A stretch of DNA of 64,000 bases from Pseudomonadota bacterium (GTDB lineage: Bacteria; Pseudomonadota; Gammaproteobacteria; Burkholderiales; Casimicrobiaceae): NCBI GenBank assembly GCA_018241765.1, contig JAFEDD010000002.1, forward strand, positions 159,778-223,777, read 5' to 3'. The notes beneath the pieces were generated by a model. That model made no database searches and was not told the origin of the DNA. It worked only from the letters and a program-made list of their open reading frames with translations. Positions 44,322 through 60,697 of the stretch are shown piece after piece; the stretch's first letter is position 1, and every line of letters begins with the position of its first letter. The position numbers and the translations under genes are program-made.

Positions 44322-44381
44322 TTCAAACAAGCCATTTCAGGCGATTGCACATGCTTGCAGGCGCATCGCTGAAATCGACGC

Positions 44382-44407: not shown

Positions 44408-44539
44408 CATTTCATCTCATTGCATGAAACGACACCTGATGGCGCTGCGCAAGTGGATACGGGCGTGTATATGGATCTTGAACTAGGTCGATGAAGGTGT
44501 ATACGATAAAGCCCTGAGGACGAACAGGAGAGCTTCACG

Positions 44540-45727
44540 ATGCTGACAGACGCCCAGTGCCGAGCCGCCAAGCCTAGAGAGGGCATCTACCGCCTCAATG
44601 ACTACAAGGGGCTGTACCTAGAAATCAAACCCAACGGCATCAAGGCTTGGCGCTATCGCTTCAAGCTCAATGACAAGGCCTCATGGTTCGCACTTGGCGA
44701 CTACCCCAGCGTGACGCTCGGCGAGGCCAGAGAGAAGTGCGAGGCAGCACGGAAGCTGGTCAGGGAGGGCATCAATCCCGTCCAGAATCGCCAGATCGAA
44801 CGCATCAAGCGCGAGCAAGACTCAGCGAACACATTCGAGGCCATCGCCAAAGAGTGGCTGGCCCTGAAGGACTGGGAGGAAGTGACCAAGAAGCGCCGGC
44901 TCGACATGCTGGAGCGCGTGGTCTTCCCGTCGATTGGCAAGCTGCCGGTACGTCAGATCACTCCGGCCCATGTCCTCGACATTCTCAACAAGACGGTCAA
45001 GCGGGGTGCCCCCACCGTAGCGGCTGAAGCCAAGCGCACCATGTCTGGCGTGTTCGAACATGCAGTCGCGACTCTACGGGCGGACACCGACCCCGTTTGG
45101 CCGGTTCGCAAAGCGCTGCCGCCCAACAAGACGCAACACAAGCGCGCCCTCAGCGCGGAGGAAGTCGGCGAGCTGCTGAACGATTTTGACGGACATGGTG
45201 GCAACTTCCAGACCATCAAGGCCTTTCAGCTGATGTGGCTGACTCTCAGCCGCCCGAATGAATCCGTCCAAGCAGAATGGGCCGAGTTCGACTTGGACAA
45301 GGCGCTCTGGACCATTCCGGCACGTCGCATGAAGGCGCGGCGAGAGCACGTCGTTCCACTACCGACTCAGGCGGTCGACCTTCTCAAGGCTATGCATCCA
45401 ATCACGGGTCACACAAAATTCGTTTTCCCGAACCGCGATGATCGCCAGCGCCCAATGGCCGACGCAGCCCTGCGGCAGGCGCTCAAGAAGCTCGGCTGGG
45501 CAACCAAGTACAGCCCGCATGGCACGCGCACCACGGGCAGCACCCGGCTCAATGAACTGGGCTATCGGCCTGACGCCATTGAGGCCCAGCTGGCACATGC
45601 GGAGCCAAATAGTGTTCGGCGGACATACAACCATGCCACCTACCTGGACGAGCGGCGAGTCATGATGCAAGACTGGGCTAACAAACTGAACGAGTGGAAG
45701 ACCTACGTACGGAAGGATGCCAACTAG
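44540..45727 (+). CDS. Tyrosine-type site-specific integrase (DUF4102/P4 family)
   Basis: 395 residues. The N-terminal DUF4102 arm-binding domain (LTDAQCRAAKPREGIYRLND ... ALGDYPSVTLGEARE) is followed by a SAM-like domain and a catalytic domain. Catalytic residues are visible as Arg in LSRPNESVQAEW, His-x-x-Arg in SPHGTRTTGSTRL, His in QLAHAEPN and Tyr in RTYNHATYLDERR. A GGAG lies nine bases before the ATG. It marks the left edge of the island. No tRNA is adjacent, so the target may be the ychF 3' region rather than a tRNA. Confidence 0.93.
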   Translation: MLTDAQCRAAKPREGIYRLNDYKGLYLEIKPNGIKAWRYRFKLNDKASWFALGDYPSVTLGEAREKCEAARKLVREGINPVQNRQIERIKREQDSANTFEAIAKEWLALKDWEEVTKKRRLDMLERVVFPSIGKLPVRQITPAHVLDILNKTVKRGAPTVAAEAKRTMSGVFEHAVATLRADTDPVWPVRKALPPNKTQHKRALSAEEVGELLNDFDGHGGNFQTIKAFQLMWLTLSRPNESVQAEWAEFDLDKALWTIPARRMKARREHVVPLPTQAVDLLKAMHPITGHTKFVFPNRDDRQRPMADAALRQALKKLGWATKYSPHGTRTTGSTRLNELGYRPDAIEAQLAHAEPNSVRRTYNHATYLDERRVMMQDWANKLNEWKTYVRKDAN

Positions 45728-45730
45728 CGC

Positions 45731-46471
45731 TCAACGCTGCTTCATGACCGCCAGGAGACGATGAGAATTTTCGCTCAGCAGAGTTGCCGCTTCCTGGGTG
45801 GAGACACCCCATGCTTGTCCAAGGTGCCGGGAGGTGACGTCAGCGCTCCAGGGCGGAACTGGCTTGTCGTCGACCCGTGCAAATGGGCCGTCACTTTCGG
45901 GAACAACAAATTGCCGCGGTAGCTTCGCCGCCAAAGCCCGGCCACTACTCGATGCAAATGCGGCTGGCCCGATGCTGAACCAGCAGCCTCGCTCTTCCGC
46001 AGCTCGCAGCTCCTTTACCGTCCCTGTGAACCAGTGCATTACTGCGGTCCCAAATCCGGCATGTCGATCCAAAATAGCCAATACGTCATTCACAGCTTGG
46101 CGTGAATGAATGCTGAGCACACGACCGCCCAGTGCCGAGCTACGTTCAATGATGGCCTCAAATAGGCCGCGCTGAACATCGTAGCTCTTGCTATACCGAG
46201 ACGAGCCATCAAGGCCGACTTCGCCAATGGCTGCGACATCGCCCATTTGCGTCAACAGAAGGTCAAGCTCGCCAGCACGCTCGTGCGCAATCTCTGGATG
46301 AAGTCCTGGGGTGACAAGTACATTCGCTGCGCCTGTGAGTACACGCGCAGTCGCAACAAAGGCCTTTGGGCTGGTAGTCACCAGCCATGTGAATTCATTC
46401 TTCTGTGCAGCTTCCTTGAACACCTCGCGAGCGTTCGGATAGAGGTCAAGGTGGCAGTGGAAATCCATCAC
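45731..46471 (-). CDS. qatD: Qat anti-phage system TatD-like hydrolase QatD
   Basis: 246 residues. It is a TatD-family metal hydrolase with every metal ligand in place: HCHLD near residue 5, IGEVGLDGS, SIHSRQA, VMHWFTG and PESDGPF near residue 193. It is the last gene of a four-gene operon, overlapping qatC by four bases, and converges on the integrase with three bases between stops. The genuine housekeeping TatD would not sit behind a QueC-like gene and a KAP ATPase, so the QatD assignment rests on context plus family. Confidence 0.9.
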   Translation of the reverse strand: MMDFHCHLDLYPNAREVFKEAAQKNEFTWLVTTSPKAFVATARVLTGAANVLVTPGLHPEIAHERAGELDLLLTQMGDVAAIGEVGLDGSSRYSKSYDVQRGLFEAIIERSSALGGRVLSIHSRQAVNDVLAILDRHAGFGTAVMHWFTGTVKELRAAEERGCWFSIGPAAFASSSGRALAAKLPRQFVVPESDGPFARVDDKPVPPWSADVTSRHLGQAWGVSTQEAATLLSENSHRLLAVMKQR

Positions 46472-47730
46472 AGTACGCCATCCCTCTGTAGCAAGACTTC
46501 AAGCTCATTCAGCCCATTAGCAAGTACGCTCCTGTATGCCAACCTAACAGCGGGCTCGGCAAATGCCAGAGAGGCCCCCAAGAACCGGTCCAAGCCCTTC
46601 TGCCGGGCCGTGAGTACGGCAAGGGCTGCAGCCATCGCGTCATCAGGTCCACTAGCCTTGTTCGCATCGGCCAACGAGCGGTGTACGTAGTCGGTTGTAT
46701 CGCGAGCAGGGTCCCAGGCGATAAATGCGGCTTTGCGAATCATGCAAGGAACACACCGGCCGCAGTGCCTTCGGTTGTAGGTGCGAAAACGGCCGCAACT
46801 CGTGGAGTCCGCCGCCAACTGCTGAAGCAGAGGCTGGTTGAGACACTCGTTGAGCATCTGGCCCTTGGTTTTGAACTGATAGGGAAGTTCAAGCCGAACA
46901 GGCACATCCAATCCGTCCAGCACACTCTGCAACATTGCGATGAACTGCGGGTGCGTGGTCCGGGTGCTCAAACTAGAGACGCGTCCTGGCACCAAAGGCG
47001 GATTGATGCAAATGAATCCATTTTCTGGAACAAACACCTGGACAGGATCACTGGCAACCCGCGAGGCAGCCAGCACCGCGAACGCGTAAAAGGCCAGAGA
47101 CCGAGCGCGCGTTGAAGTCTCACGTTGGCCGCTAAAGCTGATGCCATGACTCCACTGCCAGTGAGACCCCACACCGCCAAGCTGCGCTGCGTAATTCCTC
47201 TGACGCTGAGAGTCCTCATGTGCCAGCTGCGACACAAACATCGGGCGGCGACCTTGTGCAACAAGGTCTATCCCCCCGATGAGGCTATCGAGGCCGCCTG
47301 ATAGCAGGGATACGCAGTCGTGCGCAGTCGCAACGGGCCTGCCATCCGGTGGCGCTGCACCGCCAGCTACGAAATGGAGCTTCCAGTAGTCGCCAGTGAG
47401 AACCTTGAGAAGTGCTTCAAGTTGTTCTTGGAAAGGCAGCCAGCGCAGTGGCTCATGCAGGCCGACAGTGAGCTCAATCACGCGCGTCCAGCCATCCGCA
47501 CTCGTGCTTCGAAGACAGGCCAAGTCGGCGGCGCAAACTGCTAGGCAGAACTGAACGAAGTCCCAGACCTGAGCGCTCGGTGCGAACCCGCGCCGCTTCA
47601 ACGAACCTCGCCATCCTTTCGCGATGGTGCCAACTCCGGGGCGTCGGGCGCTCTTGAAGTAGGTAAATGCGAGTTCCCCGGCATCGAGACGCGCAGGCAA
47701 GAAGTCAGGTGTTGTACATAGAACTTTCAT
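46468..47730 (-). CDS. qatC: Qat anti-phage system QueC-like protein QatC
   Basis: 420 residues. The C-terminal two thirds resemble QueC (7-cyano-7-deazaguanine synthase). They have the PP-loop SLLSGGLDSLIGGIDLV near residue 140, and near residue 320 the zinc site CGRFRTYNRRHCGRCVPC. The N-terminal 120 residues are an extra domain absent from housekeeping QueC. No other queuosine genes are near. In Qat systems (Gao et al. 2020) this is the third component. It overlaps qatB and qatD by four bases each. Confidence 0.92.
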   Translation of the reverse strand: MKVLCTTPDFLPARLDAGELAFTYFKSARRPGVGTIAKGWRGSLKRRGFAPSAQVWDFVQFCLAVCAADLACLRSTSADGWTRVIELTVGLHEPLRWLPFQEQLEALLKVLTGDYWKLHFVAGGAAPPDGRPVATAHDCVSLLSGGLDSLIGGIDLVAQGRRPMFVSQLAHEDSQRQRNYAAQLGGVGSHWQWSHGISFSGQRETSTRARSLAFYAFAVLAASRVASDPVQVFVPENGFICINPPLVPGRVSSLSTRTTHPQFIAMLQSVLDGLDVPVRLELPYQFKTKGQMLNECLNQPLLQQLAADSTSCGRFRTYNRRHCGRCVPCMIRKAAFIAWDPARDTTDYVHRSLADANKASGPDDAMAAALAVLTARQKGLDRFLGASLAFAEPAVRLAYRSVLANGLNELEVLLQRDGVL

Positions 47731-48590
47731 TCGACAAATACCTCAAGGGTTGAGGCCAAGACTTCACTGGCAAGTCGTTGATGGTCAATCCCGCGTGGTC
47801 CTTGTCGGTCAAGAACCACCTTGACTTGCGCGTTGACATATTCCTTGATGTCGTTCCGATACAGCTGGATTTGCCGCGCGTCGAACTTAAGCTTCTCGTA
47901 TGTTTGACCCAGTTGCAGGTCAACGCGATTACATAGGTCGTTGGCGACGATGTAGCCGATGAGGTCCCCGATTTGTGCATCTGTTAGGTTGAAGATGTCG
48001 ACTTCAGGGGCTACCTCGTACAGCTGACCAAGCGCTTCTGCCGCAGCGTTCCGAATGGACTCTTCGTCGACACTTCCTGTGTTCGGAAGAACTTCTTTGA
48101 CCACCTCCAGGACGAGGTCGTTTGCTGAAAGGTTCTGGGCACGAACCCGCTGCACCCAGTCGACAACTCGTGGGTCTGTGGCATCCCGTGCGGACGCAAG
48201 AAATTGCCCCAGTTGGCCGGCCCCCTGAGCCGTCGCTCGCATGGTGGCCGCTGCTCGTCGCGGGCCGCCCATTCCCTTGCTGACCATGCTCTTGGTCGCA
48301 GTGCGCAGAGCTTCGCGCCCCCCGCCACCAAGGAATGCCGACATGCCAGAACGGGCTGGAGCAAAGCGGCGGTCAGGCGCTAGCGCAGGCCCGGTCACAT
48401 CACCTTCTTCACCGCTAGCCGCGTCGCCCTGCCCGTCAGCGTTGGCGTCGTTGGCATCAGCCGGAGAAGGACCTTCGCCATCACCAGGCGCAGGGCTTTC
48501 TCCGCCATTGCCGCCTTCGGGCGGCGACAGCCACTCAGGATCAAAGGGGGAGCGCGAGCCACCACCTTTGCTTGATGTTGACGTTCCCAT
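47727..48590 (-). CDS. qatB: Qat anti-phage system protein QatB
   Basis: 287 residues. The N-terminal 65 residues are low-complexity, Gly/Ser/Asp rich and probably disordered, beginning MGTSTSSKGGG with Gly at position 2. The remainder is helical (GREALRTATKSMVSKGMGGP then RRAAATMRATAQGAGQLGQF ... VDWVQRVRAQNLSANDLVLE). No enzyme motif is seen. The start shares one base with the qatA stop. The identity follows from the gene order and the characteristic N-terminus. Confidence 0.88.
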   Translation of the reverse strand: MGTSTSSKGGGSRSPFDPEWLSPPEGGNGGESPAPGDGEGPSPADANDANADGQGDAASGEEGDVTGPALAPDRRFAPARSGMSAFLGGGGREALRTATKSMVSKGMGGPRRAAATMRATAQGAGQLGQFLASARDATDPRVVDWVQRVRAQNLSANDLVLEVVKEVLPNTGSVDEESIRNAAAEALGQLYEVAPEVDIFNLTDAQIGDLIGYIVANDLCNRVDLQLGQTYEKLKFDARQIQLYRNDIKEYVNAQVKVVLDRQGPRGIDHQRLASEVLASTLEVFVE

Positions 48591-50431
48591 CAGCGCGCTC
48601 CTTTCCTGGCTTGTTCAATGGCTTGCTTGACCGGTCTGGAAGCATCACCGGAGGCATGCCACTGATCGAGCACAGGACGAGCCCACGTCTGCTCATACAG
48701 GAGAGGGACGAGCCCTGGGCCGACCTCCTTGATGGGCGCCTGGGCCAGCAAAGCGGCGGCCTTTGCACCAAGGTCAGGAAAGATCTTGGAGATTTCCAGT
48801 AATGACACAACGTCTTCGGTTTGTCGCCAGTTTCGCTTTGGTGACTTCAGTTGCCACACCTTGGCCATTACAGCGTCAGCCTGACTCACTCCAGCTGCTC
48901 GAATTGCCTGTGTCAGCGGCTCATTTGCGCTGGTCGCAACCATCAGCGCATCCCGCAAGGCACGGCCTTCGGTCGTCAAGCTGTCGTCACCGAAGTCCCG
49001 CATCGCGGAGTCCCTGCTCAGGTGGAGCAATGGGCGCAAGTCCATTTCGCCAAGTGCAGGCTCTAGTCCAAGCCATTCCTTATGGAAAAACTCATCCTTG
49101 AATGGCTCTGGTAAGGCCACACCTTCTCGGGCCGCGTGCTCAGCCACTCGAATCATATCGACACGTCCTTCCGTCGCGGAAGTGACTCGGCCTGCAAGCG
49201 CGTTTGCCAAGGCTTCGTCGCAGCGCTCCAAGAGGTGCCATTTGGCCAAGGCCTTGAGGTCCAATTCAATCCCCTGAGGCTTGGCTAGGGCTGACCGGAG
49301 AAAGACCGTGTTGAGGAACCGCTTCATCAGGCGCGGATTGGCGTTTACCTTGCTCGAACTCGTGAGCAGCGGTGCCAACCCCTCAGCCAATTCCATCAGC
49401 TCGACCAAGTGAGCGTTCTGAGGATTGATGAGGCCCTTCAAAAATTCCAGCGTCACCGCATCACCGCGCCAACTGGTCTTGAGGCGTTCAGAGACGGCCT
49501 GAACCGCGCGAGTGAACTGACCATCAACGAACTGACCGTCAGCAACGGCCCGTTCCAGCAGTAACAACGCCAGGTAGGCCTTTGCCTCATTCACACCTAG
49601 CCTTGGCACATGCAGCGGGACCTGGATAAGCTTGTCGAAATAGTTCGTCGCAACCTCATCACTGATGCCCGTCCCCGCAAAGTGCACTCGCACAGCGCCT
49701 CGGATGAACTCGTTGTCGGCCGCAACAACAAACGCGCTGCGCTTCAGGAACAGCAGCAAGCGAATGGATTCAAGTGTCGAAATGGCCGTCTGCGGGAGAC
49801 AGCGATCAAGGTCGTCCACGAACACAACAAGGGTAATCTTCAGCTCTTCCAGAAGCTCCTCAAGCGCATCTCGAAACGCCTGAATTTCGCCTGGCAGAGA
49901 GACCGGCTCGGCAGGCTTCAGTAGGCCCCAATCCTCATCCTTCTCGGCCTTGTCGTCAGCGGCCTCTCCCTGTTCGTCGCCAAAGCCAAACTTTGCGAGC
50001 GTGCGTCCAATCAAGCCAATAGGAATGCCTGTGGCGATCGTTGCGGCCGCCTCGCCACCGAGTTGAACGATTCGCAGCAGATTGATGCGTTGAAGAAGCC
50101 TTTTGGCTTTCTTCAACAGCCCCTCGTTGGAGGAAGCTCGGCGCAACACTTCATCACCGACCATTTGAAGAAGAGCACTACGTGCGCCTTCGAAGTCCTG
50201 ATACAGCCAAGGATTGAAGGTGACCACCACGTACGTATTCTTGTCGGGGTCTGCGTCGACGTTCAGCCGTGACGCGACCATGCGTACCAATGAGGATTTC
50301 CCAACGCCCCAGCCGCCGGATACGCCAATGGAAATGGGCTGGCCGTTGGCCTGCTGCAGTAGCTTTGCGCAGGCATCCGCAACGACGCCGAAATTCAAGT
50401 AGTCCGTGGTTGTTTCATTGTCATGCCACAT
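48590..50431 (-). CDS. qatA: Qat anti-phage system KAP-family ATPase QatA
   Basis: 613 residues. It is a KAP P-loop NTPase: Walker A GVSGGWGVGKSSLVRMVASR at residues 36-55, FNPWLYQDFEGARSALLQMV near residue 72 (KAP hallmark W) and Walker B LVVFVDDLDRCLPQTAISTL near residue 203. A hydrophobic patch IATGIPIGLIGR lies inside the N-terminal half, where KAP proteins often carry membrane segments. It is first in the operon. The gap to hsdR upstream is only 26 bases on the same strand, so co-transcription with the restriction system is possible. Confidence 0.92.
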   Translation of the reverse strand: MWHDNETTTDYLNFGVVADACAKLLQQANGQPISIGVSGGWGVGKSSLVRMVASRLNVDADPDKNTYVVVTFNPWLYQDFEGARSALLQMVGDEVLRRASSNEGLLKKAKRLLQRINLLRIVQLGGEAAATIATGIPIGLIGRTLAKFGFGDEQGEAADDKAEKDEDWGLLKPAEPVSLPGEIQAFRDALEELLEELKITLVVFVDDLDRCLPQTAISTLESIRLLLFLKRSAFVVAADNEFIRGAVRVHFAGTGISDEVATNYFDKLIQVPLHVPRLGVNEAKAYLALLLLERAVADGQFVDGQFTRAVQAVSERLKTSWRGDAVTLEFLKGLINPQNAHLVELMELAEGLAPLLTSSSKVNANPRLMKRFLNTVFLRSALAKPQGIELDLKALAKWHLLERCDEALANALAGRVTSATEGRVDMIRVAEHAAREGVALPEPFKDEFFHKEWLGLEPALGEMDLRPLLHLSRDSAMRDFGDDSLTTEGRALRDALMVATSANEPLTQAIRAAGVSQADAVMAKVWQLKSPKRNWRQTEDVVSLLEISKIFPDLGAKAAALLAQAPIKEVGPGLVPLLYEQTWARPVLDQWHASGDASRPVKQAIEQARKGAR

Positions 50432-50457
50432 GTTCCCCCCCCCTGATAATCGAGTGC

Positions 50458-53400
50458 TTATAGTTGCCCGCCTACACCCTTGAACTTCTCAACAAAGGCT
50501 GCAATCTTCTGGAAGACAGTCTGCTTCTTGGTCAGAAATTGCGGGTTCAATGGGCTCATCTTGGGCAGAACCGCGTTGAGCTCCGTGCCGTTCTCGCTGG
50601 CGAACTCACGCTTGAGTGAAGTGGTGATGTATCGCTTGGCGGCCTCAGCGTTGAGGCTCTCGGTGGTGATCAACTCCTGCGCTTCGCGCTGCTGCTCCGC
50701 TTGAGCAAACTTGAAGAACGCATCGATCACGCTGGCCTTGTCACCGATCTGGTCCAAATCGGTCTGGTTGATGAAGTCCACCACCAGACTTTCTTTCGCG
50801 CGGTTGCCCAGGCTGGCACGAATCACACGCCGCACTTCATCCACCAGTTCAGACTTGCTCTTGGTCTTCTTGTTGTGCTCGAAGATCAGTTCGAGGATGT
50901 AGTCCAGGTTGATTTCCTGAGACTTCAATAGGTCCACCTCAAAAACCACGTCATCCCAGTCAATGGTGGACTTCTCTTTCTCCGCCCCCGCCTTCTCTCG
51001 GCGTAGCCAGTCGCGCACGTCGTTGTAGGTCGAGCGATAGTCCTGAACCTTCCGCTCGGGTGGGAGCGTGATGGCTTGCAGTGCGGTCAGATCTTCATCA
51101 CTCAGGTAGTGCCTGGCCTTGAACGCCTCAACTGCGGCAGGGTCGGCCAGATCGACGCTTTGCAACTCTTTCAAGCTGGCAAATTCGTCATAGTTCTGCA
51201 GCACGTTCTCGACGCGTAGGTACTCGCCGAACAGTTTGGCGAAGGCCTTCTTATCCGACTCCTTCTCAATGGCAGCAGGGTTGGGGAAACGTGCTTCCAG
51301 TTCCTGCACCACATCCTTGAAGCCTCGACGCGCCTCACCGGTGGCCGCATCGGTGAAGCCTTCCATGTACTCCTTGTAGCTCTTCTCCAGCACCACGTTC
51401 TTGGTGTTCTTGTCACCGAACAGGGTAATGGCGTCGATGGTCGCCTGCTCCATGTCGCGGAAGGTGACGATGTTGCCGAAGGTCTTGGTGGCGTCAAAGA
51501 TGCGGTTGGTACGCGAGTAGGCCTGCATCAGTCCGTGGAAGCGCAGGTTCTTGTCGACAAACAGCGTGTTGAGCGTGGGGGCATCAAAGCCGGTCAGGAA
51601 CATGCCCACCACGATGAGCAGATCGATTTCCTTTGCTTTGACCTGCTTGGCCAGATCTCGGTAGTAGTTCTGAAAGCCGTTGCTGTCCACGCTGAAGTTG
51701 GTCTTGAACAGCGCGTTGTAGTCAGCGATGGCCGCGCTCAGGAACTCCTTGGCGCTGCTGTTCATGGCCGAGACATCAAAGCTCTCGTCCTGAATGTCGC
51801 CAATCGCGTCCTGCTCCTCGTTTGCTGCGAACGAGAAGATGGTCGCCACTTTCAGCGGCTTGTCGCTGTTCTTCTGCAACTCGCGGAAGCACTCGTAGTA
51901 CAGCTTGGCGGCATCCACACTGCTGACCGCAAACATGGCGTTGAAGCCCTTGTTGCCCGCGTGCAGGCGGTGGGTCTTTTGCCGGTAGTTGTTCAGGATG
52001 TACTGGGTGATCTCGCAGATGCGATCAGGGTGCAGCAGGGCCTGCTTGTTCTCGGCTGCACTCAGCTTCTTCTCGTCCTGCTCGGTCTCGATGGCCTTGA
52101 ACTGAGGACGAACGTCGTTGTAGTCCACCTTGAACTTCAACACCTTCTCGTCACGAATGGCATCGGTGATCACGTATGAGTGCAGCTCACGGCCAAACAC
52201 GCTCGCCGTGGTCTCGGCACCCAAAGCGTTCTCCGGGAAGATTGGCGTGCCGGTGAAGCCGAACTGGCAGAACTTCTTGAACTTCTTCTTCAGGTTCTTC
52301 TGGGCTTCACCAAACTGGCTGCGGTGGCACTCATCGAAGATGAAGACCACCTGCTTGCCGTAGATGGGCAAGTCGGCCTCGCTCTTCATCAGGTTGTTGA
52401 GCTTCTGGATGGTCGTGACGACGATCTTGTTGTCGTCCTTCTCCAGATTGCGCTTCAGCCCCGCCGTGCTATCCGAACCATTGACGCTGTCCGGCGAAAA
52501 GCGCTGGTACTCCTTCATGGTCTGGTAGTCCAGATCCTTGCGGTCCACCACGAAGAACACCTTATCGATGAAGTCCAGCTCGGTGGCCAGGCGCGCGGCC
52601 TTGAAACTGGTCAGGGTCTTGCCGCTGCCGGTGGTATGCCAGATGAAGCCGCCACTTTCCGTCTTGCTCCAGTTCTTGGCTTGGTGGCTGCTCCTGATCT
52701 TCCACAAAATGCGTTCCGTGGCAGCGATCTGGTAAGGGCGCATCACCAGCAGCGTGTTGCTGACGTCGAACACCGAGTAATGCAGCAGCACGTTGAGCAA
52801 CGTGTGTTTCTGGAAGAAGGTGGCCGTGAAGTCCTTCAGGTCCTTGATCAGCGTGTTGTCCGCCTTCGCCCAGTTCATGGTGAAGTCGAAGCTATTCTTG
52901 TTGCGCTGGGTGGTGTTGGCGAAGTAGCGGCTATCGGTGCCGTTCGAGATCACGAACAGCTGCAGGAACTTGAACAGGGACTGCTCGCTGTTGAAGCTCT
53001 CCTTGCTGTAGCGGTGCACCTGGTTGAAGGCTTCGCGGATCGCCACTCCGCGCTTCTTCAGCTCCACCTGCACCAATGGCAAGCCATTGACCAAGATCGT
53101 CACGTCATAGCGGTTGGCGTGCGTGCCAGTCTGCTCGAACTGCTTGATCACCTGCACCTTGTTGCGGGTGACGTTCTTCTTGTCCAGCAGATAGATGTTC
53201 TGGATGCGCCCGTCGTCGAAGACGAAGTCGTGGATGTAGTCGTCGTGAACCTTGCGAGTCTTCTCGACGATGCCATCACTGGGCTTGTCCAGCCAAGATT
53301 CGACGAATCGCATCCATTCGCCATCGGTGAACTGCACGGCGTTGAGTGCCTGCAGCTGCACACGCACGTTGTCCAGCAGATCGACAGGGGTCTTGATGGC

Positions 53401-53556
53401 CGAGGCAAACTCGTAGCCCTGATTGACCAGATCCTGGATCAGCTCACGTTCCAGATCACTTTCGCTCTGGTAGCTCTCGGCGACTTTCCATTCACGGGCG
53501 TACTTGTCCAGAACGATGAAATTGTTCGATTCGGCAATGGTCTTGTAATCGCTCAT
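50458..53556 (-). CDS. hsdR: Type I restriction enzyme (type IC) R subunit HsdR
   Basis: 1032 residues, the size of EcoR124I HsdR. The PD-(D/E)xK nuclease residues fall at Asp151, Glu165 and Lys167 ([20 protein letters not shown]) and the Walker A lysine at Lys313 ([17 protein letters not shown]), the same numbers I recall for EcoR124I. The DEAD-type box is [12 protein letters not shown] near residue 408. It translocates and cuts unmodified DNA together with HsdM and HsdS. It is separated from hsdS by prrC and starts three bases after the prrC stop. Confidence 0.97.
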
Positions 53557-53559
53557 TCG

Positions 53560-54672
53560 TCAGGCGCCTTGTTGTTGCCAAAAGCCATGGCTGTTCTTCA
53601 GGTGGTCTAGCAACAGTTGGACCGTGACGCGCTCCTGCGGCGTGGGCTCCGCAACCGCCTCATTGGATAGCGTGCTATGGCTGGTGAAATTAATAATTCG
53701 GCTGTAGTAAAGCTGCTTGTCATCAGGTAAAAGCTCAGACCACTTGGGGTAGCCCAGAAAGCTGGCCGTCTTCTCGTACAGATTGCGCAGCAGGGTGAAG
53801 TGATATCGCTCAACTTTACTGTCGGCAATCGCCTGTTCGATGGTCTGCACAAGGTGCAAATGATAGGAAAAACTCTTATTGGAGTCGCCGGACTTCTCAG
53901 TCAGCGAGAAGCTACCATCGTCAAAGCGCTCCAGCATATAGCATGCCTTGTTGCTGAACTCATTGAACAGTACGTTGTAAAACAGTGGGCTATGCGTGGT
54001 GATGATGAACTTCAGGTCGGATTGGCTAGACTTGATCAGCGCAGCGAGGTTCACCGCCAGCTCGATCAGGTGGTTTTCATCCAGCGAGCTTACCGGGTCA
54101 TCAACAAAGACATGGGTCAGCTTGTTGAAGACATCGGTGGACCGGTCGGCGACCTCCGGGATATTCAACTCGGCAATCACCTGCTCCAACAGGGCGTTGA
54201 ACACACTCCAGATGAAGTTGCTTTCCTCGCCCTTGGAAATCTTGATATGCGGCTCAGATTGCTGATTGCCACGCTCGAACGAGAAGCTGACCGACGAGAA
54301 GTCTGCGCTGAAATGCGGCGTCAGTTTGTCGCTGGTGTAACGCTGAAAGGTGGTGATGATGCTTTGGTCTTGCCCTTGCTCTTCCAGCACCCACTTGGTG
54401 AAGGCGTTGGGCTGGATCTCCAGCTTCGGTTCAGCATCCTGCCCTAGGTCGTTGTCCCAGTAAAACAAGTCTTCGGTGAAAGCGCTGTAATAAATAATCT
54501 TCTTGTCGGCCAACTCCGATGATGCATCGTCACCTGCCTGCTTTGGGTCAATCTCTTGCTTGAACGCCCGCGACAGGCGTGTTTTGCCCGTGCCATTGAA
54601 GGCATAAATCAGCTGCACCTTTTTGTCGGTGCCGTTTAGCTGTTGGGCGATTTCCGCGAGCGTCTTCCTCAT
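53560..54672 (-). CDS. prrC: Anticodon nuclease PrrC
   Basis: 370 residues. The N-terminal ABC-like ATPase domain has YAFNGTGKTRLSRAFK (P-loop, 23-38), a signature SKGEESNFIW near 146, VFVDDPVSSLDENHLIELAV near 188 and ITTHSP. The C-terminal nuclease domain carries Arg296, Glu300 (LLRNLYEKTASF) and His332 (NFTSHSTLS). The spacing is identical to Arg320-Glu324-His356 of E. coli PrrC, so the catalytic triad is intact. PrrC cleaves tRNA-Lys at the anticodon when phage proteins such as T4 Stp inhibit the linked restriction enzyme. It is nested between hsdS and hsdR as in the prrABCD locus. It is about 26 residues shorter than E. coli PrrC, mostly at the N-terminus. Confidence 0.94.
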   Translation of the reverse strand: MRKTLAEIAQQLNGTDKKVQLIYAFNGTGKTRLSRAFKQEIDPKQAGDDASSELADKKIIYYSAFTEDLFYWDNDLGQDAEPKLEIQPNAFTKWVLEEQGQDQSIITTFQRYTSDKLTPHFSADFSSVSFSFERGNQQSEPHIKISKGEESNFIWSVFNALLEQVIAELNIPEVADRSTDVFNKLTHVFVDDPVSSLDENHLIELAVNLAALIKSSQSDLKFIITTHSPLFYNVLFNEFSNKACYMLERFDDGSFSLTEKSGDSNKSFSYHLHLVQTIEQAIADSKVERYHFTLLRNLYEKTASFLGYPKWSELLPDDKQLYYSRIINFTSHSTLSNEAVAEPTPQERVTVQLLLDHLKNSHGFWQQQGA

Positions 54673-54673
54673 G

Positions 54674-55852
54674 TTATGCCTCTACCTCCTCAGGCTTGGG
54701 GAAGCTCAACAGCAAATCGCGGTAGTAGGCGTATTGCTTTTGGCGTAGCGCGATTTCGCGCGGCAAGCCTTCGGTGAGGGAGGCTGTCAGCGCGTCGAAT
54801 TTGTCGAGAATGGTGACGATGCGGGCCTGCTCAGCAAGCGATTTTTCAGGATCACCAGGGCATGGTAGTGGGATCTTTATGTCCTTCAGCATTGGCTTGG
54901 TAAGTTGAGGTATACCTGCTTCAGGAACCTTGTAATCACTTTCGATAGTCTTCATGAAGTAGTAGGCGTACTTCAGGTTGATTTCTGTTCTAGGCGTTAA
55001 GACCAAAAGTCGCACGATTGGAAAGAATGGCACATCCTGGTAGCTCGTCCATCCAATGGTGCCGCGTGCCGAAATGGTCAAACTAGGCTTTTCGATCTTG
55101 GCCTTGTTGGTCCAGCCGTATAGCGATTTTTCGCCAATTCCGTTCGAAAGAATCGGAACACTGAACTCTTCTGTTTGCTCATCGGATAGAGCGTCTTTTG
55201 GAGCATCTCCGCCCGCGAAGATGTCGAAGATATCCTCTAGCGATTTCCACTCCACATCCCCATCTTCAAAACTCAACAACTGGTCGCGATAGTAGTTGTA
55301 TTGTTTTTTTCGTGCGGCCAGCTCGGCGGTCAGCTCGGCGGTCAGCTCGGTGAAGGCGTCCAGAATGCGCACGATTTCGGTTTGGATTTCAAGCGACTTT
55401 TTGGGGTCGTCTGGGCAGGGGATGGGGATCAGTAAATCCTTCAAGTTGCTTGCATTCAATGCAGGAATGCCGTCATATGTGCAAAGCGCTTGGATTTCAG
55501 GCTGCAATTCGAGCAGCAGGTGATAAAGGAACCGAATGCTGACCAGCTGCGGATTTTTGATCGTAACCGAATAGTTCAAATTTCCTCGGAAATATTTCCC
55601 TGGTTGCCATGTTACTGAACCAACTCCTGCACCTCGTGACGTAATACCAATTGGGTCGTTGTCAGTGTTCCATTCATCAATAAACCCGAGTGGCTCTCGT
55701 CCACTATTAATAACGGGGTACTCACCCGGATTTGCGGAGATCATTTTTTTATTGACTGCTTGGCCAGTCTTGATTGACGTGATTTCCCCCAACGTCCTCC
55801 ACTCCACCGCCACCTCATCCAATAGCTTGTCCAAGAAGTTCACGCTACTCAT
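54674..55852 (-). CDS. hsdS: Type I restriction-modification specificity subunit HsdS (type IC)
   Basis: 392 residues from the ATG at 55852 ([18 protein letters not shown]), which overlaps the hsdM stop as ATGA. The alternative ATG at 55870 has a GGAG five bases upstream and would add six residues, so the start is not certain. Two target-recognition domains, each opening with a W-(R/K)-x-L segment ([15 protein letters not shown] and [15 protein letters not shown]), alternate with conserved helices ([31 protein letters not shown]). Between the two halves lies a tandem TAEL repeat that sets the spacing between half-sites in the EcoR124 family. The DNA target cannot be read from sequence. Confidence 0.95.
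55321..55350 (-). repeat. 12-bp tandem repeat in hsdS encoding TAEL-TAEL
   Basis: GCTCGGCGGTCA occurs twice in perfect tandem (55321-55332, 55333-55344) plus a third half unit, encoding [11 protein letters not shown] in the central spacer near residue 170. In EcoR124I and EcoR124II two versus three TAEL units change the recognition spacer from N6 to N7, so slippage here could switch specificity. Confidence 0.85.
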
Positions 55853-57408
55853 ACCTCCTGCTCCTCGCATTCAATCTCCGCGACGATGGCATCAATGTCC
55901 TTCCGAAGCTGGTCGATCCTAGCCACAGTGGATTTCAGTTCCGCATTGAGCTGAGCGATGTCCACCACTTCGCGGTTGTCTTTGGCTTCGATATAGCTGC
56001 TGACCGACAGGTTGTAATCGTTGGCCGCAATCTTTTCCAGCGGGACGGATTGCGCGAAGTGGGCGATATCGGCCTTGCTGTCGAACACAGCCATGATTTG
56101 ATCGATATGCGAATCCAGCAGGACGTTGTTATTGGTTTCTTTCTTGAATAGCACGCTGGCGTCGATGAACTGAGTAGTCGTGTTTTTCTTGTTTTTCGCC
56201 AGCACCAGAATGTTCACCGCAATGGTTGTGCCGTAAAACAGGTTGGGCGCGAGCGAGATCACGGTTTCGACGTAGTTGTTATCCACCAGATACTGGCGGA
56301 TTTTCTGCTCGGCGCCGCCCCGGTAGAAAATGCCAGGGAAACAGACAATCGCAGCGCGGCCTTTGCTGGAGAGGTAGTTGAGCGCGTGCAATACAAAGGC
56401 AAAGTCGGCCTTGGACTTGGGCGCGAGTACGCCGGCCGGGGCGAAGCGCTCGTCGTTGATCAGCGTGGGGTCGTCGCTGCCGATCCACTTCACCGAGTAC
56501 GGTGGGTTGGAGACGATGGCATCAAATGGCCGGTCGTCAGCGAAATGCGGCTCTTCCAACGTGTTGCCCAACTGGATGTTGAACTTGTCGTAGTTCACGT
56601 TGTGCAAGAACATGTTCATCCGCGCCAAGTTGTACGTGGTGTGGTTGATTTCTTGCCCGAAGAAACCGTCTTCGATCAAGTGCTGATCGAAGTGCTTTTT
56701 GGCTTGCAGCAGCAGCGAGCCAGAGCCGCAGGCGGGGTCATAAATCTTGTTGACGCTGGTTTGCTTGTGCATCGCAAGCTGTGCGATCAGCTTGGACACA
56801 TGCTGCGGCGTGAAAAACTCGCCGCCCGACTTGCCCGCGTTCGCGGCGTAGTTGGAGATCAGGAACTCATAGGCATCGCCGAACAGGTCGATGCGACTGG
56901 TGTCGAAACCGCCGAAGTCCAGCTCCGCCACGCGTTTGAGCACTTTGGACAGTCGATCGTTCTTGTCTTTGACGGTGTTGCCAAGGCGGTTGCTGGTGGT
57001 GTCGAAGTCAGCAAACAGGCCTTTGATGTCGCGCTCGGAGGGGTAACCGTTGGCGGAAGCTTCGATGGCGGCAAAGACGTTGGCCAGATCGGTATTCAGG
57101 CTTTCGTTGGTGTTGGCGTTGGCCGCGACATTAACAAACAACTGGCTGGGGTAGATGAAGTAGCCTTTGGTCTTGATGGCGTCGTCTTTGGCGGCAGCGA
57201 TGTTCGGATCACTGTCTGCCATGGCGGCGTAATTGACAGAGGGGTCGCCGCCGGTGATGTAGTCGATGAAGTTCTCGCTGATGAAGCGATAGAACAGGGT
57301 GCCCAGCACGTATTGCTTGAAGTCCCAGCCATCGACGGCACCGCGGACGTCATTGGCGATATCCCAGATCTTGCGCTGTAGGGCAGCGCGTTGTTCGTTG
57401 CTTGTCAT
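55849..57408 (-). CDS. hsdM: Type I restriction-modification methyltransferase HsdM
   Basis: 519 residues, N6-adenine methyltransferase. An N-terminal helical HsdM domain ([37 protein letters not shown]) precedes SAM motif I ([19 protein letters not shown] near residue 218) and motif IV NPPY ([18 protein letters not shown] near residue 297). The C-terminal coiled tail ([20 protein letters not shown]) contacts HsdS. It is the first large gene of the hsdM-hsdS-prrC-hsdR run and corresponds to prrA in E. coli. Confidence 0.96.
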
Positions 57409-57442
57409 CTTAAAAGTCCAGTTTTGATTCGTTGGGTCCGGC

Positions 57443-57628
57443 TCAGGCTCGATGCTTGAACTGGAGGAAATGGGTTGTTACGGCAAGAGGGCCGCGTTCT
57501 ATCTCCCTGCTTTTGTCGCCTTGGGTCGATAGAAAACCTTGCTTCTTCAGGCGGTTGCCGACGTATCGCCCAGCTTCTATCACCCATCTATCGACGATAG
57601 AGCACAGGTTGTCCGATAGGCTGTTCAT
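57443..57628 (-). CDS. Small hypothetical protein in the RM operon
   Basis: 61 residues ([20 protein letters not shown] ... [10 protein letters not shown]). Not recognised. Support is positional: its ATG overlaps the stop of the AlbA_2 gene as ATGA, and it fills the otherwise empty gap before hsdM, ending 34 bases from it. It is mildly basic with no hydrophobic segment. It could be a regulator or an inhibitor of the RM/PrrC module, or a non-functional ORF. Confidence 0.45.
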
Positions 57629-59262
57629 GCCACTGCCCAGTACCGCCGCCAGCGGTTGTTGCCCTCAAAGCGGACGTCCCCGCGCTCGATCAGCTCTTCC
57701 AGCGCGCGCTTGACTTGCTTGGGATGGATTTCGCCGCCGACGCGCTGGTGGATGTCGCTGATGGCTGATCTGGGGTAGCGCTGCAGGTCTTCCAAGACCA
57801 GCGCGGCCAGGCGGTGTGGCTCAATGCGTTTGAGGGTGGTCTCGCCGGTGAACTGGAGGCTGCGCAGCAAGCTGGGGTCAACAAAGTAACGTGTTGCCTG
57901 GGTACGCCCGGCGCTTTGCACCAACTGCCAATCCAGCAGGCGTTTGAGCCAGGGTTGCAGTGCTTCAACCGATGGCAGCTCAAGCGACGTTGCCAGCTCG
58001 CGTGCCGTCAGCGCATCATGTTGCGCCAACAGGCCCAATGCGATCCTCTCGCGCTGCGTGAGCTGATAGGTTTGATCTGCCTTCGCAATGAAGTCGATGA
58101 CCTCGGGCTTAAGGATGCGGCGGCGCACTGTCACCTGCACACGGTCGTGGGTCTCGATCAACTCGGGAGCCGGGCGGCCCTGTGAGAGCAGCACCTCGAA
58201 GATCTTGTCGAAGCCGCTGCCTTCCCGCTCCATCAGTTTCAAGTCATGGAACAGGCGTGCCAGGTGTTCGTTACGGCGTACCGTAGTGTGGAGCACGTTC
58301 TGCGGCGAGACGCCCAGCGGTAGCGGTCCAGGGTTGACCACTTCCAGCCGGTCTGGATGCAGGTTCAAAAAGATGTCACCGCGCTGGGTGTAGGGGCGAT
58401 GTACCAATGCGTTGACCAATAACTCGCGCACCACGATTTCATCGAAAGCGGGCACGTTCTGACGGTACAGGCCATCGGGCAGCTCGTAGCGCTCGCGGAA
58501 GTCTGGCACCTCCTGCCAGACCGCTTCGATCAACTCCATCGGGCTTTGCGTGTGGTCGTCCCAAACCAGCTTGTTGACCTTCTGCCCGTGCTCGTCGTAC
58601 TTGATGAACTGGATGACCGGAGCGGTGGTCAGTTGCGCGCGATGATGCTGGCGACCGAGACTGAGCACGCCCAGATTGGTGAGGTTCGGTCCTTGTGCGA
58701 GCTGATAGTGATCGAGCAACTCGTCGTCAGACTTCTCCTTCACAGAAGGCTTGACGCGATCCGATGCACGCAAGGCTGCAAGCAGCTTGTCGCGTTTGGC
58801 GACATCGATCTCAGCACGTGAAACTTGCAAGGTGATTTGCGTTTCCCACGGTAATGCGGAACGCTCACTGGCGAGGCGCATCACGTCATCACCCGTCACG
58901 GGCTTGCTTTGATCGGCCACGCGCAGGAAATAGCGGCCGTCCGTGGTAGACGCAACAGCCATGGCGCGCGGAATTCGCAATTCGATGTATTGGCCGCCAT
59001 TCGGGGAGATGGTGACATCCGGCAGCACCGTCACGTTAACGGTGCGCTCCGCCAGCTTGCGACGTAGTGTGTCTGGCAGGTCTGGAGGGACACGCTGATC
59101 GGCGGGAGGCTCGCTCTGGCCATCCTCGATCCCCAGCAGCAGGCGGCCACCGGTTGCATTGGCAAAGGCAATGCAGTCCTTAGCGATTTCGTTCCAGTCC
59201 GCCGTCTTGCCGGTTACGGCACGCAAGGACTTCTGGTCAAGGAGTTGTCCTTCCAAGCTCAC
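57625..59262 (-). CDS. AlbA_2 (Schlafen-type) DNA-binding protein with RecG-like ATPase-C domain
   Basis: 545 residues. The N-terminal AlbA_2 domain shows KDCIAFANATGGRLLLGIED near residue 29. The middle region resembles the conserved C-terminal half of putative RecG-type transcriptional regulators (VVRELLVNALVHRPYTQRGD, LEVVNPGPLP, GSGFDKIFE). The last 120 residues look like winged helices (LTQRERIALGLLAQHDALTA, IHPKQVKRALEELIERGDVR). The start is GTG at 59262 behind AAGGTG. It lies between an HTH gene and hsdM on the same strand. AlbA_2 proteins are frequent neighbours of type I RM systems. Whether it regulates the operon or acts in defence is unknown. Confidence 0.82.
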   Translation of the reverse strand: MSLEGQLLDQKSLRAVTGKTADWNEIAKDCIAFANATGGRLLLGIEDGQSEPPADQRVPPDLPDTLRRKLAERTVNVTVLPDVTISPNGGQYIELRIPRAMAVASTTDGRYFLRVADQSKPVTGDDVMRLASERSALPWETQITLQVSRAEIDVAKRDKLLAALRASDRVKPSVKEKSDDELLDHYQLAQGPNLTNLGVLSLGRQHHRAQLTTAPVIQFIKYDEHGQKVNKLVWDDHTQSPMELIEAVWQEVPDFRERYELPDGLYRQNVPAFDEIVVRELLVNALVHRPYTQRGDIFLNLHPDRLEVVNPGPLPLGVSPQNVLHTTVRRNEHLARLFHDLKLMEREGSGFDKIFEVLLSQGRPAPELIETHDRVQVTVRRRILKPEVIDFIAKADQTYQLTQRERIALGLLAQHDALTARELATSLELPSVEALQPWLKRLLDWQLVQSAGRTQATRYFVDPSLLRSLQFTGETTLKRIEPHRLAALVLEDLQRYPRSAISDIHQRVGGEIHPKQVKRALEELIERGDVRFEGNNRWRRYWAVA

Positions 59263-59284
59263 ACGTCACCTTCCCCTGCTGGAT

Positions 59285-59491
59285 TCATTTTTGTTCGCTC
59301 CCATCGCCCGATTCTTCATCGGCACCTCCCGCTCGGACCCACTCATCCACTTCGGTTAGCTGAAACTTCCACAGCCGTCCGACACGATGTGCGGGAAGCC
59401 CCTTGCGTTCCCTCCAGCGATAAACGGTGTCCTTGGCAACACCCAGGTGCTGGGCAACGTCTTCGGCAGTAACCCAAGGTTCAATGCTCAT
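59285..59491 (-). CDS. Excisionase/MerR-type helix-turn-helix protein
   Basis: 68 residues. A single winged HTH of the helix_turn_helix_17 (excisionase) type: WVTAEDVAQHLGVAKDTVYR, RKGLPAHRVGRLWKFQLTEV then DEWVRAGG. It precedes the AlbA_2 and hsd genes by 22 bases. Such small HTH proteins regulate RM operons or help integrase-mediated excision. The first role is favoured by position, since alpA and the integrase lie elsewhere. Confidence 0.85.
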   Translation of the reverse strand: MSIEPWVTAEDVAQHLGVAKDTVYRWRERKGLPAHRVGRLWKFQLTEVDEWVRAGGADEESGDGSEQK

Positions 59492-59620
59492 GTCGATGGC
59501 GCTCTGCCTGCATTAGTGAAAGTCGTTGAGGATCGTTTTAAGTCTACCAGCAGAGCGCTCACAAAGCACCCTTTCGCTATTGAGTCACGCTGCAGAGAAG
59601 TTGGCGTAGGGACACTCGAT

Positions 59621-60466
59621 TCAGGTGGCGGGTGGCTCACTCGACCCGTACTTTGCCTCCAGCGCCAGGACCCGTGCTTCCCTTGCCTCCAGTTCATCCA
59701 TCACAGCTCTCGCTTCTAGCATCGTCTTCTGTGCAAAGGCGCGAAGCTGGCGATCACGTTCGCTAGTCCCACGCGTGATCTCACGCGCCCGCTGAAGCAA
59801 CGCGGCCTGCGCCGGCAGCCCGAACTTCACCCGCGTCCACTGCGCTCGACTCATACGCTGACGGCCTGGCCCCAAGCGAGCGAGTCCAGACGGCCCGGCA
59901 ACGTGCTCCCAGAATCGGTCCTGAAATGCGCGCATCGCCGTGTTGTAGGCAAGGCGCTGTTCCCTGGGTGTTTGAGCGCCCTTTGCCGCACGAAAGCCGG
60001 GGTGCAAGTCCTTGACGTTGCCACCGTCAGGATTGACGACATAGAAGTGGAGGTGCGGGTGCGCCTCGTCGGTGTGCTCGACAACGGACCGAAGGCGATC
60101 ACCGAATTCCATTTGCAGCCATTCCAAGGCGCTTTGCTTCCAGTAGCTGTACTCAATGCCGCCACGTGGATACGACGCTACGCCAGCCAGCAGGACGGAC
60201 GCATCCTTTCGCAAACGGCGACCTGCTGCATCACGACTGCGCGCATGGATGGCGCCAACTTCGGCTTCCAACTCTGTCAGGCTGGAGCCAAGCAGCAGGA
60301 TAGGTGGCCTCGGCCTCGGCACATGCAAGCAGGCTTGCGGCTCGCGGCTGGCCTCCGCAATCACGTCGCGCACAGCCCATTTTCGATCTGCTCCCCGCGA
60401 GGTTTTCTTAGGTGGGTGCAGCGAGTAGACCGATATGTGAACAAACTGGATGCCGCCTGTGATCAT
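59621..60466 (-). CDS. MobV-type relaxase (plasmid recombination enzyme family)
   Basis: 281 residues. The metal-binding motif HTDEAHPHLHFYVVNPDGG near residue 138 is the H-x-D-E-x2-P-H-x-H signature of MobV (Pre/Mob) relaxases. It is preceded by YSYWKQSALEWLQMEFGDRL and followed by a helical, coiled-coil tail (ARAVMDELEAREARVLALEA). It would nick oriT so that the island can be carried by a helper conjugation system. The N-terminal part is less typical (SVYSLHPPKKTSRGADRKWA). No mating-pair genes are present, so the element is mobilizable at most. Confidence 0.8.
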   Translation of the reverse strand: MITGGIQFVHISVYSLHPPKKTSRGADRKWAVRDVIAEASREPQACLHVPRPRPPILLLGSSLTELEAEVGAIHARSRDAAGRRLRKDASVLLAGVASYPRGGIEYSYWKQSALEWLQMEFGDRLRSVVEHTDEAHPHLHFYVVNPDGGNVKDLHPGFRAAKGAQTPREQRLAYNTAMRAFQDRFWEHVAGPSGLARLGPGRQRMSRAQWTRVKFGLPAQAALLQRAREITRGTSERDRQLRAFAQKTMLEARAVMDELEAREARVLALEAKYGSSEPPAT

Positions 60467-60524
60467 GGGGCACCGTCGCTGGAAACATAGTGACCGACTA
60501 TATTTATCGCCGCTGTCGCAGCAA

Positions 60525-60697
60525 TAAATGTCGGCCAGGGGAAAATCCCCTGGACCCCGCCGCCCAATGTGCGAACAGTGTGTTCAAACTGTGCGAACCA
60601 ATGGGCGAAACTGTGTGAGCAACTGGCCGACTTGATGCCAACCATTGTGCAAACAATGTGGCCACAATGTGGGGGCACTGTGGCGCATATTGTGTAA
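60525..60697. other. Candidate oriT region next to the relaxase
   Basis: Non-coding stretch directly upstream of the relaxase gene. It contains a perfect hairpin (CCAGGGGA / TCCCCTGG around AAA, about 60536-60554) next to GACCCCGCCGCCC. Beyond it is a run of related ACTGTGCGAAC / AACTGTGTGAGC / CATTGTGCAAACAATG motifs, the last a perfect 6-bp inverted repeat with a 4-base loop. Hairpin plus repeats beside a relaxase gene is what an oriT looks like. The nick site is not identified. Confidence 0.5.

Follow-up and report, generated by a model that had tools for sequence, protein, structure and literature searches.

The window, by which we mean the whole 64,000-nt stretch analysed, carries on its minus strand a cassette (45731-59491) in which a Qat system, a prr-type restriction-modification (RM) system and the anticodon nuclease PrrC are stacked. 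These are known systems in a new arrangement, with Qat appended as a tail module to a prr-type operon. The stack itself is real, and we consider it probable that it represents a mobile modular cassette with a type IC-like RM chassis, an exchangeable cargo made up of PrrC and Qat, and Qat under RM control. Gene content, order, packing, the shared hsdR-qatA junction and the swapping of hsdS and internal cargo, with core and Qat alike, are read from the sequence; the recurrent junction hints at shared control and falls short of proving teamwork.

Organization of the island

The island adjoins a ychF-like gene (43224-44321, plus strand) and is bounded only by this gene and, at 68889 in window numbering, by a metK-like gene, both named by eye; an attachment-site search did not locate the right end and turned up no second copy of the ychF 3' end on that side. 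A tyrosine-type integrase-like ORF (44540..45727, plus strand), recognised by eye, matches an ORF in the same position in locus L017 (96% nt and 97% aa), and its 3' end faces that of qatD across 3 nt. According to the ORF calls and profile models, the cassette consists of a small HTH_17 (excisionase/MAD1-like) protein (59285..59491; Pfam HTH_17 59 bits; TIGR01764 53 against 28.8), a 545-aa AlbA_2/HATPase_c_4 protein with a GTG start (57625..59262; Pfam SLFN_AlbA_2 and HATPase_c_4), hsdM-hsdS-prrC-hsdR and then qatABCD, all on the minus strand. Also on this strand, at 59621..60466, the island carries an ORF whose sequence looks, by eye, relaxase/mobilisation-like. Membership of the MADS system, considered for the HTH match to MAD1, was rejected (MADS1 64.4 vs 80, MADS2 55.3 vs 720).

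The initial annotation had given the coordinates, strand and gene order correctly. Models and junction lengths confirm the presence and close packing of the three parts that it named: Qat, a prr-type (type IC-like) RM system and PrrC. Neighboring genes overlap at qatD/qatC (4 nt), qatC/qatB (4 nt), qatB/qatA (1 nt) and hsdS/hsdM (22 nt), and are separated at qatA/hsdR (26 nt), hsdR/prrC (3 nt), prrC/hsdS (1 nt) and AlbA_2/HTH (22 nt). Its statement that no gap exceeds 36 nt thus stands for these junctions and fails at AlbA_2/hsdM, where the gap is 216 nt once a small ORF is discounted.

The RM core and PrrC

The RM core, with putative methylation activity at a bipartite site, comprises the adenine methylase subunit HsdM (55849..57408; TIGR00497 654 bits vs a cut-off of 243), the specificity subunit HsdS (54674..55870; Pfam Methylase_S 165 bits in two stretches) and a type I restriction subunit, HsdR, of the EcoR124 class (50458..53556; EcoR124_C, PF12008, 246 bits; TIGR00348 680; PADLOC REase_I 1529), which we take to be type IC. 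ORFs and models alike link prrC (53560..54672; PADLOC PrrC 485 bits) to this type IC operon. Its product is 69% identical to the E. coli protein annotated as an anticodon nuclease in L088 and also 69% to that of L089. In the E. coli alignment, the N-terminal ABC-type ATPase motifs FNGTGKT, SKGEE and VDDPVSSLD are kept or nearly so. The catalytic triad Arg-X3-Glu-X31-His, as given in PMC2610378, is found at R296-E300-H332 in the window and with equal spacing at 320/324/356 in L088. By its sequence the protein is a true PrrC homologue, with putative tRNA-Lys cleavage activity.

The order hsdM-hsdS-prrC-hsdR is that of the E. coli prr locus (type IC EcoprrI with PrrC). Both E. coli prr-type loci (L088 and L089) have the same 1-nt hsdS/prrC gap, and L088 shares the R-E-H triad of PrrC and has an HsdR to which that of the window is 81% identical. 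In contrast, the two E. coli loci have no HTH or AlbA_2 gene annotated before them and no Qat annotated after them, and the window PrrC is without an N-terminal insert of 16 residues that follows residue 17.

Identity of the Qat genes

The Qat system (qatABCD) was reportedly described by Gao et al. in 2020. In the window, qatA (48590..50431) encodes a KAP-family P-loop ATPase (Pfam KAP_NTPase 175 bits; PADLOC QatA 380 bits); qatB (47727..48590; PADLOC QatB 96 bits), a protein starting MGTSTSS, with the N-terminal glycine motif; qatC (46468..47730), a QueC-like protein (PADLOC 308 bits; NCBIfam 297 vs a cut-off of 280); and qatD (45731..46471), a TatD-family nuclease with a GTG start (PADLOC QatD 224 bits; NCBIfam QatD 255 vs a cut-off of 230). 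The PADLOC models match all four Qat proteins, with their genes in the order qatA-B-C-D, as well as PrrC and REase_I. The NCBIfam cut-offs are exceeded by QatC and QatD; QatB is just short (96.4 vs 100) and QatA well short (402.8 vs 600). The records of the QatA relatives in Halomonas (L009) and P. aeruginosa (L010) also lack the QatA name. A sequence search at E<=0.01 yielded no solved structure for QatA or PrrC.

QatC keeps the SGGLDS loop, the STRTTHP motif and the C-terminal cysteine cluster when aligned with L009 and L010. Gao, Wassarman and Kranzusch 2026 (PMC13279940) report the sufficiency of QatB and QatC, the QatB MGTS motif and the QatC active site. The window shares with that system the four overlapping genes in order, the MGTS start of QatB, and the SGGxDS loop and conserved threonine motif of QatC, the latter matched as a motif and not residue by residue at T278/T280. 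Among the 54 loci with a qatB match, MGTS is present in 48 and VGTS at the expected start in four, and the motif is absent from the frame read in two. The difference from known Qat is that here it has no leader of its own, and qatA begins 26 nt past hsdR.

The hsdR-qatA junction and transcription

The 26-nt spacer (50432..50457) contains a nine-G run, and L015 and L016 have GGGAGGAG there. A consensus scan of 44300-60500, a kind of search that gives weak evidence, returned two promoter-like sites against a mean of 5.2 in shuffles, both on the plus strand, and 19 terminator-like sites against a shuffle mean of 16.2. No terminator-like site is on the minus strand within 46994-55688, and therefore none is at the hsdR-qatA junction, where no minus-strand promoter-like match occurs either. 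The terminator and separate promoters that would have spoken against the initial annotation were thus not seen at this site by the scan.

From this layout, hsdM-hsdS-prrC-hsdR-qatABCD are probably co-transcribed. The shared transcription that had been proposed for the whole row is the simplest reading from hsdM to qatD; from the HTH gene to qatD, however, there are probably two transcription units, HTH-AlbA_2 and hsdM-qatD, because the small ORF between them is probably a regulatory interval and not a gene.

The interval upstream of hsdM

The AlbA_2-hsdM interval (57409..57624, minus strand), a proposed operator/promoter region, holds six GATAG/CTATC sites, the highest density among the 6379 windows of 216 nt in the 64 kb and one that was matched by 0 of 2000 shuffles. 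Such a cluster before hsdM makes an own promoter probable, and hsdM onward is probably driven separately from within these 216 nt. The matching intervals contain six sites in L011, six in L012, five in L015 and four in L078; these copies are 84-87% identical overall to that of the window, so site conservation by itself is weak evidence. All four stand-alone AlbA_2 relatives lack the array and have one site directly after the gene instead. A scan of 57409-57624 gave no sigma-70-type promoter match. A structured RNA in the interval was considered and rejected, the fold being unremarkable (z -0.83).

The HTH_17 and AlbA_2 proteins are candidate regulators, and the latter may alternatively be accessory; AlbA_2 relatives at 72-79% identity occur without annotated RM neighbours. 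For EPEC, PMC12255303 describes a dedicated regulator, RptR, with repeated sites ahead of the island. The window differs in having GATAG/CTATC rather than TAGCTA, which was not found by eye in the 216 nt, and in its candidate regulators, HTH_17 and AlbA_2.

The 61-aa small ORF (57443-57628), which the initial annotation counted as a gene, lies nearly all inside this interval. Were it a real regulatory protein, an analogue of C-proteins, the whole HTH-qatD row would be a single operon, which we regard as very unlikely. All 61 codons can be read through in the window, L011, L012 and L015, and the window's frame has a 4-nt overlap with the AlbA_2 stop; against the Aeromonas copy the second codon position is the least changed (9/4/10 changes at positions 1/2/3, that is, 4 of 23), the sole hint of constraint. 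On the other hand, non-synonymous changes form the majority in all comparisons: 15 of the 22 codons that differ from Aeromonas (seven synonymous) and 20 of the 27 that differ from Thauera, where the changes (9/12/10) show no codon-position bias, and the frame terminates early in the Zoogloea copy (L078). With so little sign of protein-level selection, we judged the ORF unlikely to be a gene.

Core genes are kept and cargo is swapped

The HTH, AlbA_2, hsdM and hsdR genes show 82-98% nt identity to those of L011-L013, L015, L016, L078 and L081 where present; for hsdM and hsdR the figure against E. coli L088 is 72-74%. Across these relatives hsdS aligns only partially, as does prrC with the exception of L081. 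As internal cargo L011 has RhuM and a PDDEXK protein, L078 has RhuM (recognised by eye) and L013 has PrrC, and Aeromonas plasmids carry the RM core without Qat. A matching hsdR-qatA junction of 24-26 nt exists in L015, L016, L078 and L081. It is intact in Thauera and Stutzerimonas and is followed by a qatA stub in two further genomes; the adjacency is therefore shared with other genomes, and the other objection foreseen falls away. In L078, L080 and L081, Qat has shrunk to a stub, with a full-length hsdR frame retained upstream.

A second defence system within an RM operon is likewise described for the RM-embedded TgvAB of V. cholerae (PMC11411939), for DarTG2 with RptR in EPEC (PMC12255303) and for PrrC in Pseudomonas GI-Hotspot 7 (PMC12629846). 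Compared with these, the window has Qat added after hsdR.

Qat behind restriction-type operons

In 12 of the 66 scored loci, falling in about seven lineages, a type I, type III or BREX operon precedes qatA, its last gene ending <=120 nt upstream. The remaining 54 have no such tight RM or BREX neighbour, nor have any of 10 Qat loci on plasmids, which represent other branches of QatA, so this linkage is not required for Qat. Together with the Qat stubs beside full hsdR and the swaps of hsdS and internal cargo, the 54 unlinked loci weigh against a claim of cooperation. Two viral contigs with Qat loci have no RM-like ORF, by eye, within 3.6 kb upstream. A QatA match at E<=0.001 was found in seven of 60 relatives' genomes, complete in the window's own and partial in the other six. 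A class survey (QatA model, E<=1e-60) found five of 369 genomes, the window's included, and Shedu, tried as a control system, three of 369, both too few for a survey; a DNA search for E. coli Qat with the qatA of L083 matched 7% of the query in a single fragment.

The stacking may be coincidental: defence islands bring many systems close together, and Qat would have landed behind hsdR by recombination at a junction without selected effect. We give this somewhat less than an even chance; it can hold together with the layout half of the cassette reading, so that the two probabilities overlap. It accords with the Qat stubs and with the other defence genes that precede Qat in the same orientation, namely Shango SngC (L030) and NsnC (L074) at tight spacing and JetD (L027), a DRT nitrilase (L057), CapP (L028) and PDC-M01B (L053) at looser spacing. 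In the QatA tree, moreover, linkage is not clearly clustered (nine changes against a mean of 10.3 in shuffles, 76 of 500 of which reached so low a count). Against it, RM/BREX genes make up 12 of the 15 tight same-strand upstream neighbours, whereas none of the 11 at 150-500 nt is clearly of this kind, and among 58 loci none had a recognised RM/BREX operon close behind qatD; both comparisons were framed post hoc, on loci that are not independent.

Alternatively, Qat could act on the products or failures of restriction, with RM and Qat selected together, either because QatA binds cut ends or because phages with modified DNA escape RM. The repetition of the tandem with type I, type III and BREX operons and the reported binding of single- and double-stranded DNA by QatA (PMC13279940) agree with such coupling. 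We nevertheless think it unlikely: Qat cloned without an RM partner still protects (PMC13279940), most sampled Qat loci lie outside such tandems, and the RM core of the Aeromonas plasmids does without Qat. A broader proposal, also doubtful though somewhat less so, is that Qat serves one proteobacterial branch as a general 3' add-on, repeatedly captured behind hsdR, res and brxL and transcribed under their control, which would act, PrrC-like, when the modification-based barrier is engaged or failing, giving three tiers under one promoter.

A proposed modular cassette under one control region

In the mobile modular cassette that we favour, the type IC-like RM core would be the chassis and offer two cargo slots: an internal one between hsdS and hsdR, filled by PrrC, and a 3' one behind hsdR, filled by Qat. 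We infer that hsdM to qatABCD form one transcription unit beginning in the 216-nt interval, where the HTH or AlbA_2 product may bind the GATAG/CTATC array, and that Qat would thus be placed under the control of the RM system. HsdMSR would cleave unmodified incoming DNA. PrrC, described as controlled by the RM enzyme in PMC2610378, would be kept inactive by the RM complex and cut tRNA once a phage blocks restriction. QatB and QatC, aided by QatA and QatD, would add a separate layer against other phages. The layers would be complementary; we do not claim that Qat and the RM enzyme are physical partners.

A recurring junction between the end of an RM or BREX operon and the start of Qat bears on why defence systems cluster and offers a concrete, testable case of layering under one control region. 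It also points to where the regulation of Qat might be sought. Even if the packing is due to chance, the cassette would still illustrate clearly how a mobile RM chassis can carry cargo slots.

Organization of the Defence Locus

The minus strand at 45731–59491 carries, by ORF calling in the window, the genes HTH, AlbA_2, hsdM, hsdS, prrC, hsdR, qatA, qatB, qatC, and qatD, which confirms the gene order and the single strand given in the initial annotation. The names were assigned by Pfam, PADLOC, and NCBIfam model matches, which place HsdR in the EcoR124 class and HsdM in TIGR00497 and show that HsdS is present. The classification of the anticodon nuclease PrrC and of the Qat anti-phage system holds under PADLOC, whose models match PrrC and all four Qat proteins; QatC and QatD pass the NCBIfam cut-off, QatB falls just below it, and QatA well below. 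In the alignment, QatB begins with MGTS and QatC retains SGGLDS and the threonine motif, all reported as required for Qat defence in PMC13279940.

PrrC scores 485 bits in PADLOC and has no NCBIfam match. The hsdM-hsdS-prrC-hsdR order is common to the window and the E. coli prr-type loci L088 and L089, and the protein is 69% identical to that of L088. Residues R296, E300, and H332 align, with equal spacing, with the E. coli catalytic triad 320/324/356, as described in PMC2610378. As judged from this alignment, the protein is a PrrC homologue carrying the known catalytic residues.

The G+C content of the locus region is 51–60% per 2 kb, against 60–69% in most of the window leftward. ORFs that look mobilisation-like, replication-like, and regulatory (named by eye) lie at 59621–63710 and on to 68870 (locus L103). 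They point to an integrated mobilisable element lying between a ychF-like and a metK-like gene, for which no right attachment site could be located. A tRNA-SeC gene (anticodon tca) is located outside the island at 15792–15888.

The hsdR-qatA Junction and Exchangeable Cargo

A spacer of 26 nt separates hsdR from qatA, and a consensus scan, weak as such scans are, found no promoter- or terminator-like match on its minus strand. The ribosome-binding region of qatA (50432–50457) contains nine consecutive G, where the copies in L015 (Thauera) and L016 (Stutzerimonas) read GGGAGGAG; the run might reduce QatA translation or make it variable, or it might be an assembly error.

The adjacency is not unique to this genome: the same junction, with spacers of 24–25 nt, recurs in L015, L016, L078 (Zoogloea MAG), and L081 (proteobacterial MAG), with only 62 qatA codons matched in L078 and 22 in L081. 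A short qatA stub lies behind a full-length hsdR frame in L078, L080, and L081, and no other qat gene was matched within these loci; Qat appears to have been lost there and the RM system kept. In L017, Qat and the integrase are near-identical to those of the window, and the contig ends inside qatA. A ychF-like gene adjoins the integrase or the stub in L015, L017, and L078, and lies ~2.3 kb from the stub in L081.

Between the junction copies, hsdM, hsdR, and qat share 82–97% nucleotide identity, and hsdS and prrC align only partly, except for prrC of L081 (82%); L078 has no prrC. Furthermore, Aeromonas plasmids carry the RM core (HTH, AlbA_2, hsdM, and hsdR) at 86–94% nucleotide identity, without Qat and with other cargo. 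On these comparisons, the locus is best described as an RM chassis with exchangeable cargo.

RM and BREX Operons Upstream of qatA

A QatA profile scan of genome contigs yielded 68 loci, 66 of them with a scorable qatA start (all but L017 and L082); ORFs followed a simple longest-ORF rule, by which a gene cut off at the end of a short contig would go unseen. A tight upstream neighbour (same strand, at least 200 aa, ending at most 120 nt before qatA) was found in 15 of the 66 and identified by similarity, PADLOC, and Pfam. Type I hsdR precedes qatA in nine loci (L015, L016, L020, L021, L022, L045, L078, L080, and L081), type III res in L039, brxL in L058 and L067, SngC in L030, NsnC in L074, and gyrB in L036; thus, 12 of the 15 neighbours are the last gene of an RM or BREX operon. 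The HsdRs of L020, L021, and L080 are divergent, with 106–160 bits to their best PADLOC models and HSDR_N in Pfam.

Taken with HsdR similarity, a QatA tree (built by a quick method that flagged several long branches) points to about seven RM/BREX lineages: the window type, L020/L021, L022, L045, L080, L039, and L058/L067. The tree requires eight linked/unlinked changes, with gains and losses indistinguishable, Shango scored as linked, L017 and L025 left out, and L080 absent. Many shuffles cluster linkage on it just as strongly, with 76 of 500 giving as low a count.

The region downstream of qatD was scorable in 58 of the 68 loci, and in five of these (L022, L051, L056, L064, and L065) an ORF of 200 aa or more follows tightly on the same strand. 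Among the four scanned (all but L065), no RM or BREX operon was recognisable: L051 matches a retron-type PRTase, L056 and L064 gave no match, and L022, the least certain, is a 235-aa ORF with a short 35-bit PglW match. None of the 11 same-strand upstream genes 150–500 nt away was clearly RM or BREX; that of L018 encodes a helicase that weakly matches several systems, including BrxHI and DrmD. Ten opposite-strand or looser neighbours were scanned as well, and none is RM or BREX. For upstream versus downstream, one-sided Fisher tests gave 0.0003 when counted by locus and 0.010 when counted as seven lineages; for tight versus looser neighbours, the two-sided values were 5e-5 and 0.001, respectively. 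All these values are indications only since the tests were framed post hoc and the loci are related.

Ten plasmid-borne Qat loci from other branches of QatA, hand-picked from 60 listed of 111 records, include one tight upstream gene, for a DUF3883 protein (Sulfuricurvum). None of the ten shows an annotated RM gene just upstream in a gene table that is incomplete, which speaks against the RM-Qat tandem being general. Genes embedded within RM operons, including PrrC, are well known; searches and selected passages of the open-access PMC literature revealed no description of Qat behind RM or BREX operons.

Qat was also observed in other settings. In L030, one strand (3986–20694) carries Shango SngA, SngB, and SngC, then qatABCD, the gene for a protein of 874 aa that weakly matches DruK (PD-(D/E)XK), and that for a GajB-like helicase. 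Opposite-strand Tn7-like genes lie near Qat in L023 (TniQ of I-F type) and L070 (TnsB), and Qat may therefore be carried by Tn7-like transposons, whether CRISPR-associated or not.

The Interval between AlbA_2 and hsdM

The initial annotation also counted a small ORF as an operon member (61 aa, 57443–57628), a claim that we consider unlikely. Non-synonymous changes prevail, in 15 of 22 changed codons against the Aeromonas copy (codon positions 1/2/3 changed 9/4/10 times) and 20 of 27 against Thauera (9/12/10), and the Zoogloea frame stops early. By this substitution pattern and early frame end, the ORF is unlikely to be a gene, although the low second-position change against Aeromonas is a weak hint in its favour.

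The 216-nt interval in which this ORF lies (57409–57624) contains six GATAG/CTATC pentamers, a motif chosen after inspecting the alignment. Across the 64 kb, 6379 windows of this length average 0.23 sites, those with six occur only at the interval, and none of 2000 dinucleotide shuffles reached six. The corresponding intervals hold six sites in L011 and L012 (relatives of the RM core), five in L015, and four in L078. We read the interval as a putative promoter/operator region of hsdM; a promoter scan gave no sigma-70-type match within it. The nearest described parallel is E. coli RptR, which binds repeats ahead of a type I RM island (PMC12255303), but the sites differ, being TAGCTA for RptR and GATAG/CTATC here.

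Four plasmid relatives of the AlbA_2 protein (L107, L108, L109, and L110; rhizobial and Caballeronia plasmids) are 72–79% identical to it, that of L110 with an in-frame stop. Three of the records list no RM gene within 10 kb, and the fourth (L109) carries no annotation; hence, the protein also exists independently of RM systems. All four have one GATAG/CTATC site just after the AlbA_2 gene, L109 another at 175 nt, and the array is absent from all four.

Proposed Mode of Action

We infer that the hsdM-to-qatD block is most likely one transcription unit, with control exerted at 57409–57624. The products, which might also cooperate, would provide three complementary layers of defence: restriction, PrrC, which would be freed upon a block of restriction, and Qat.
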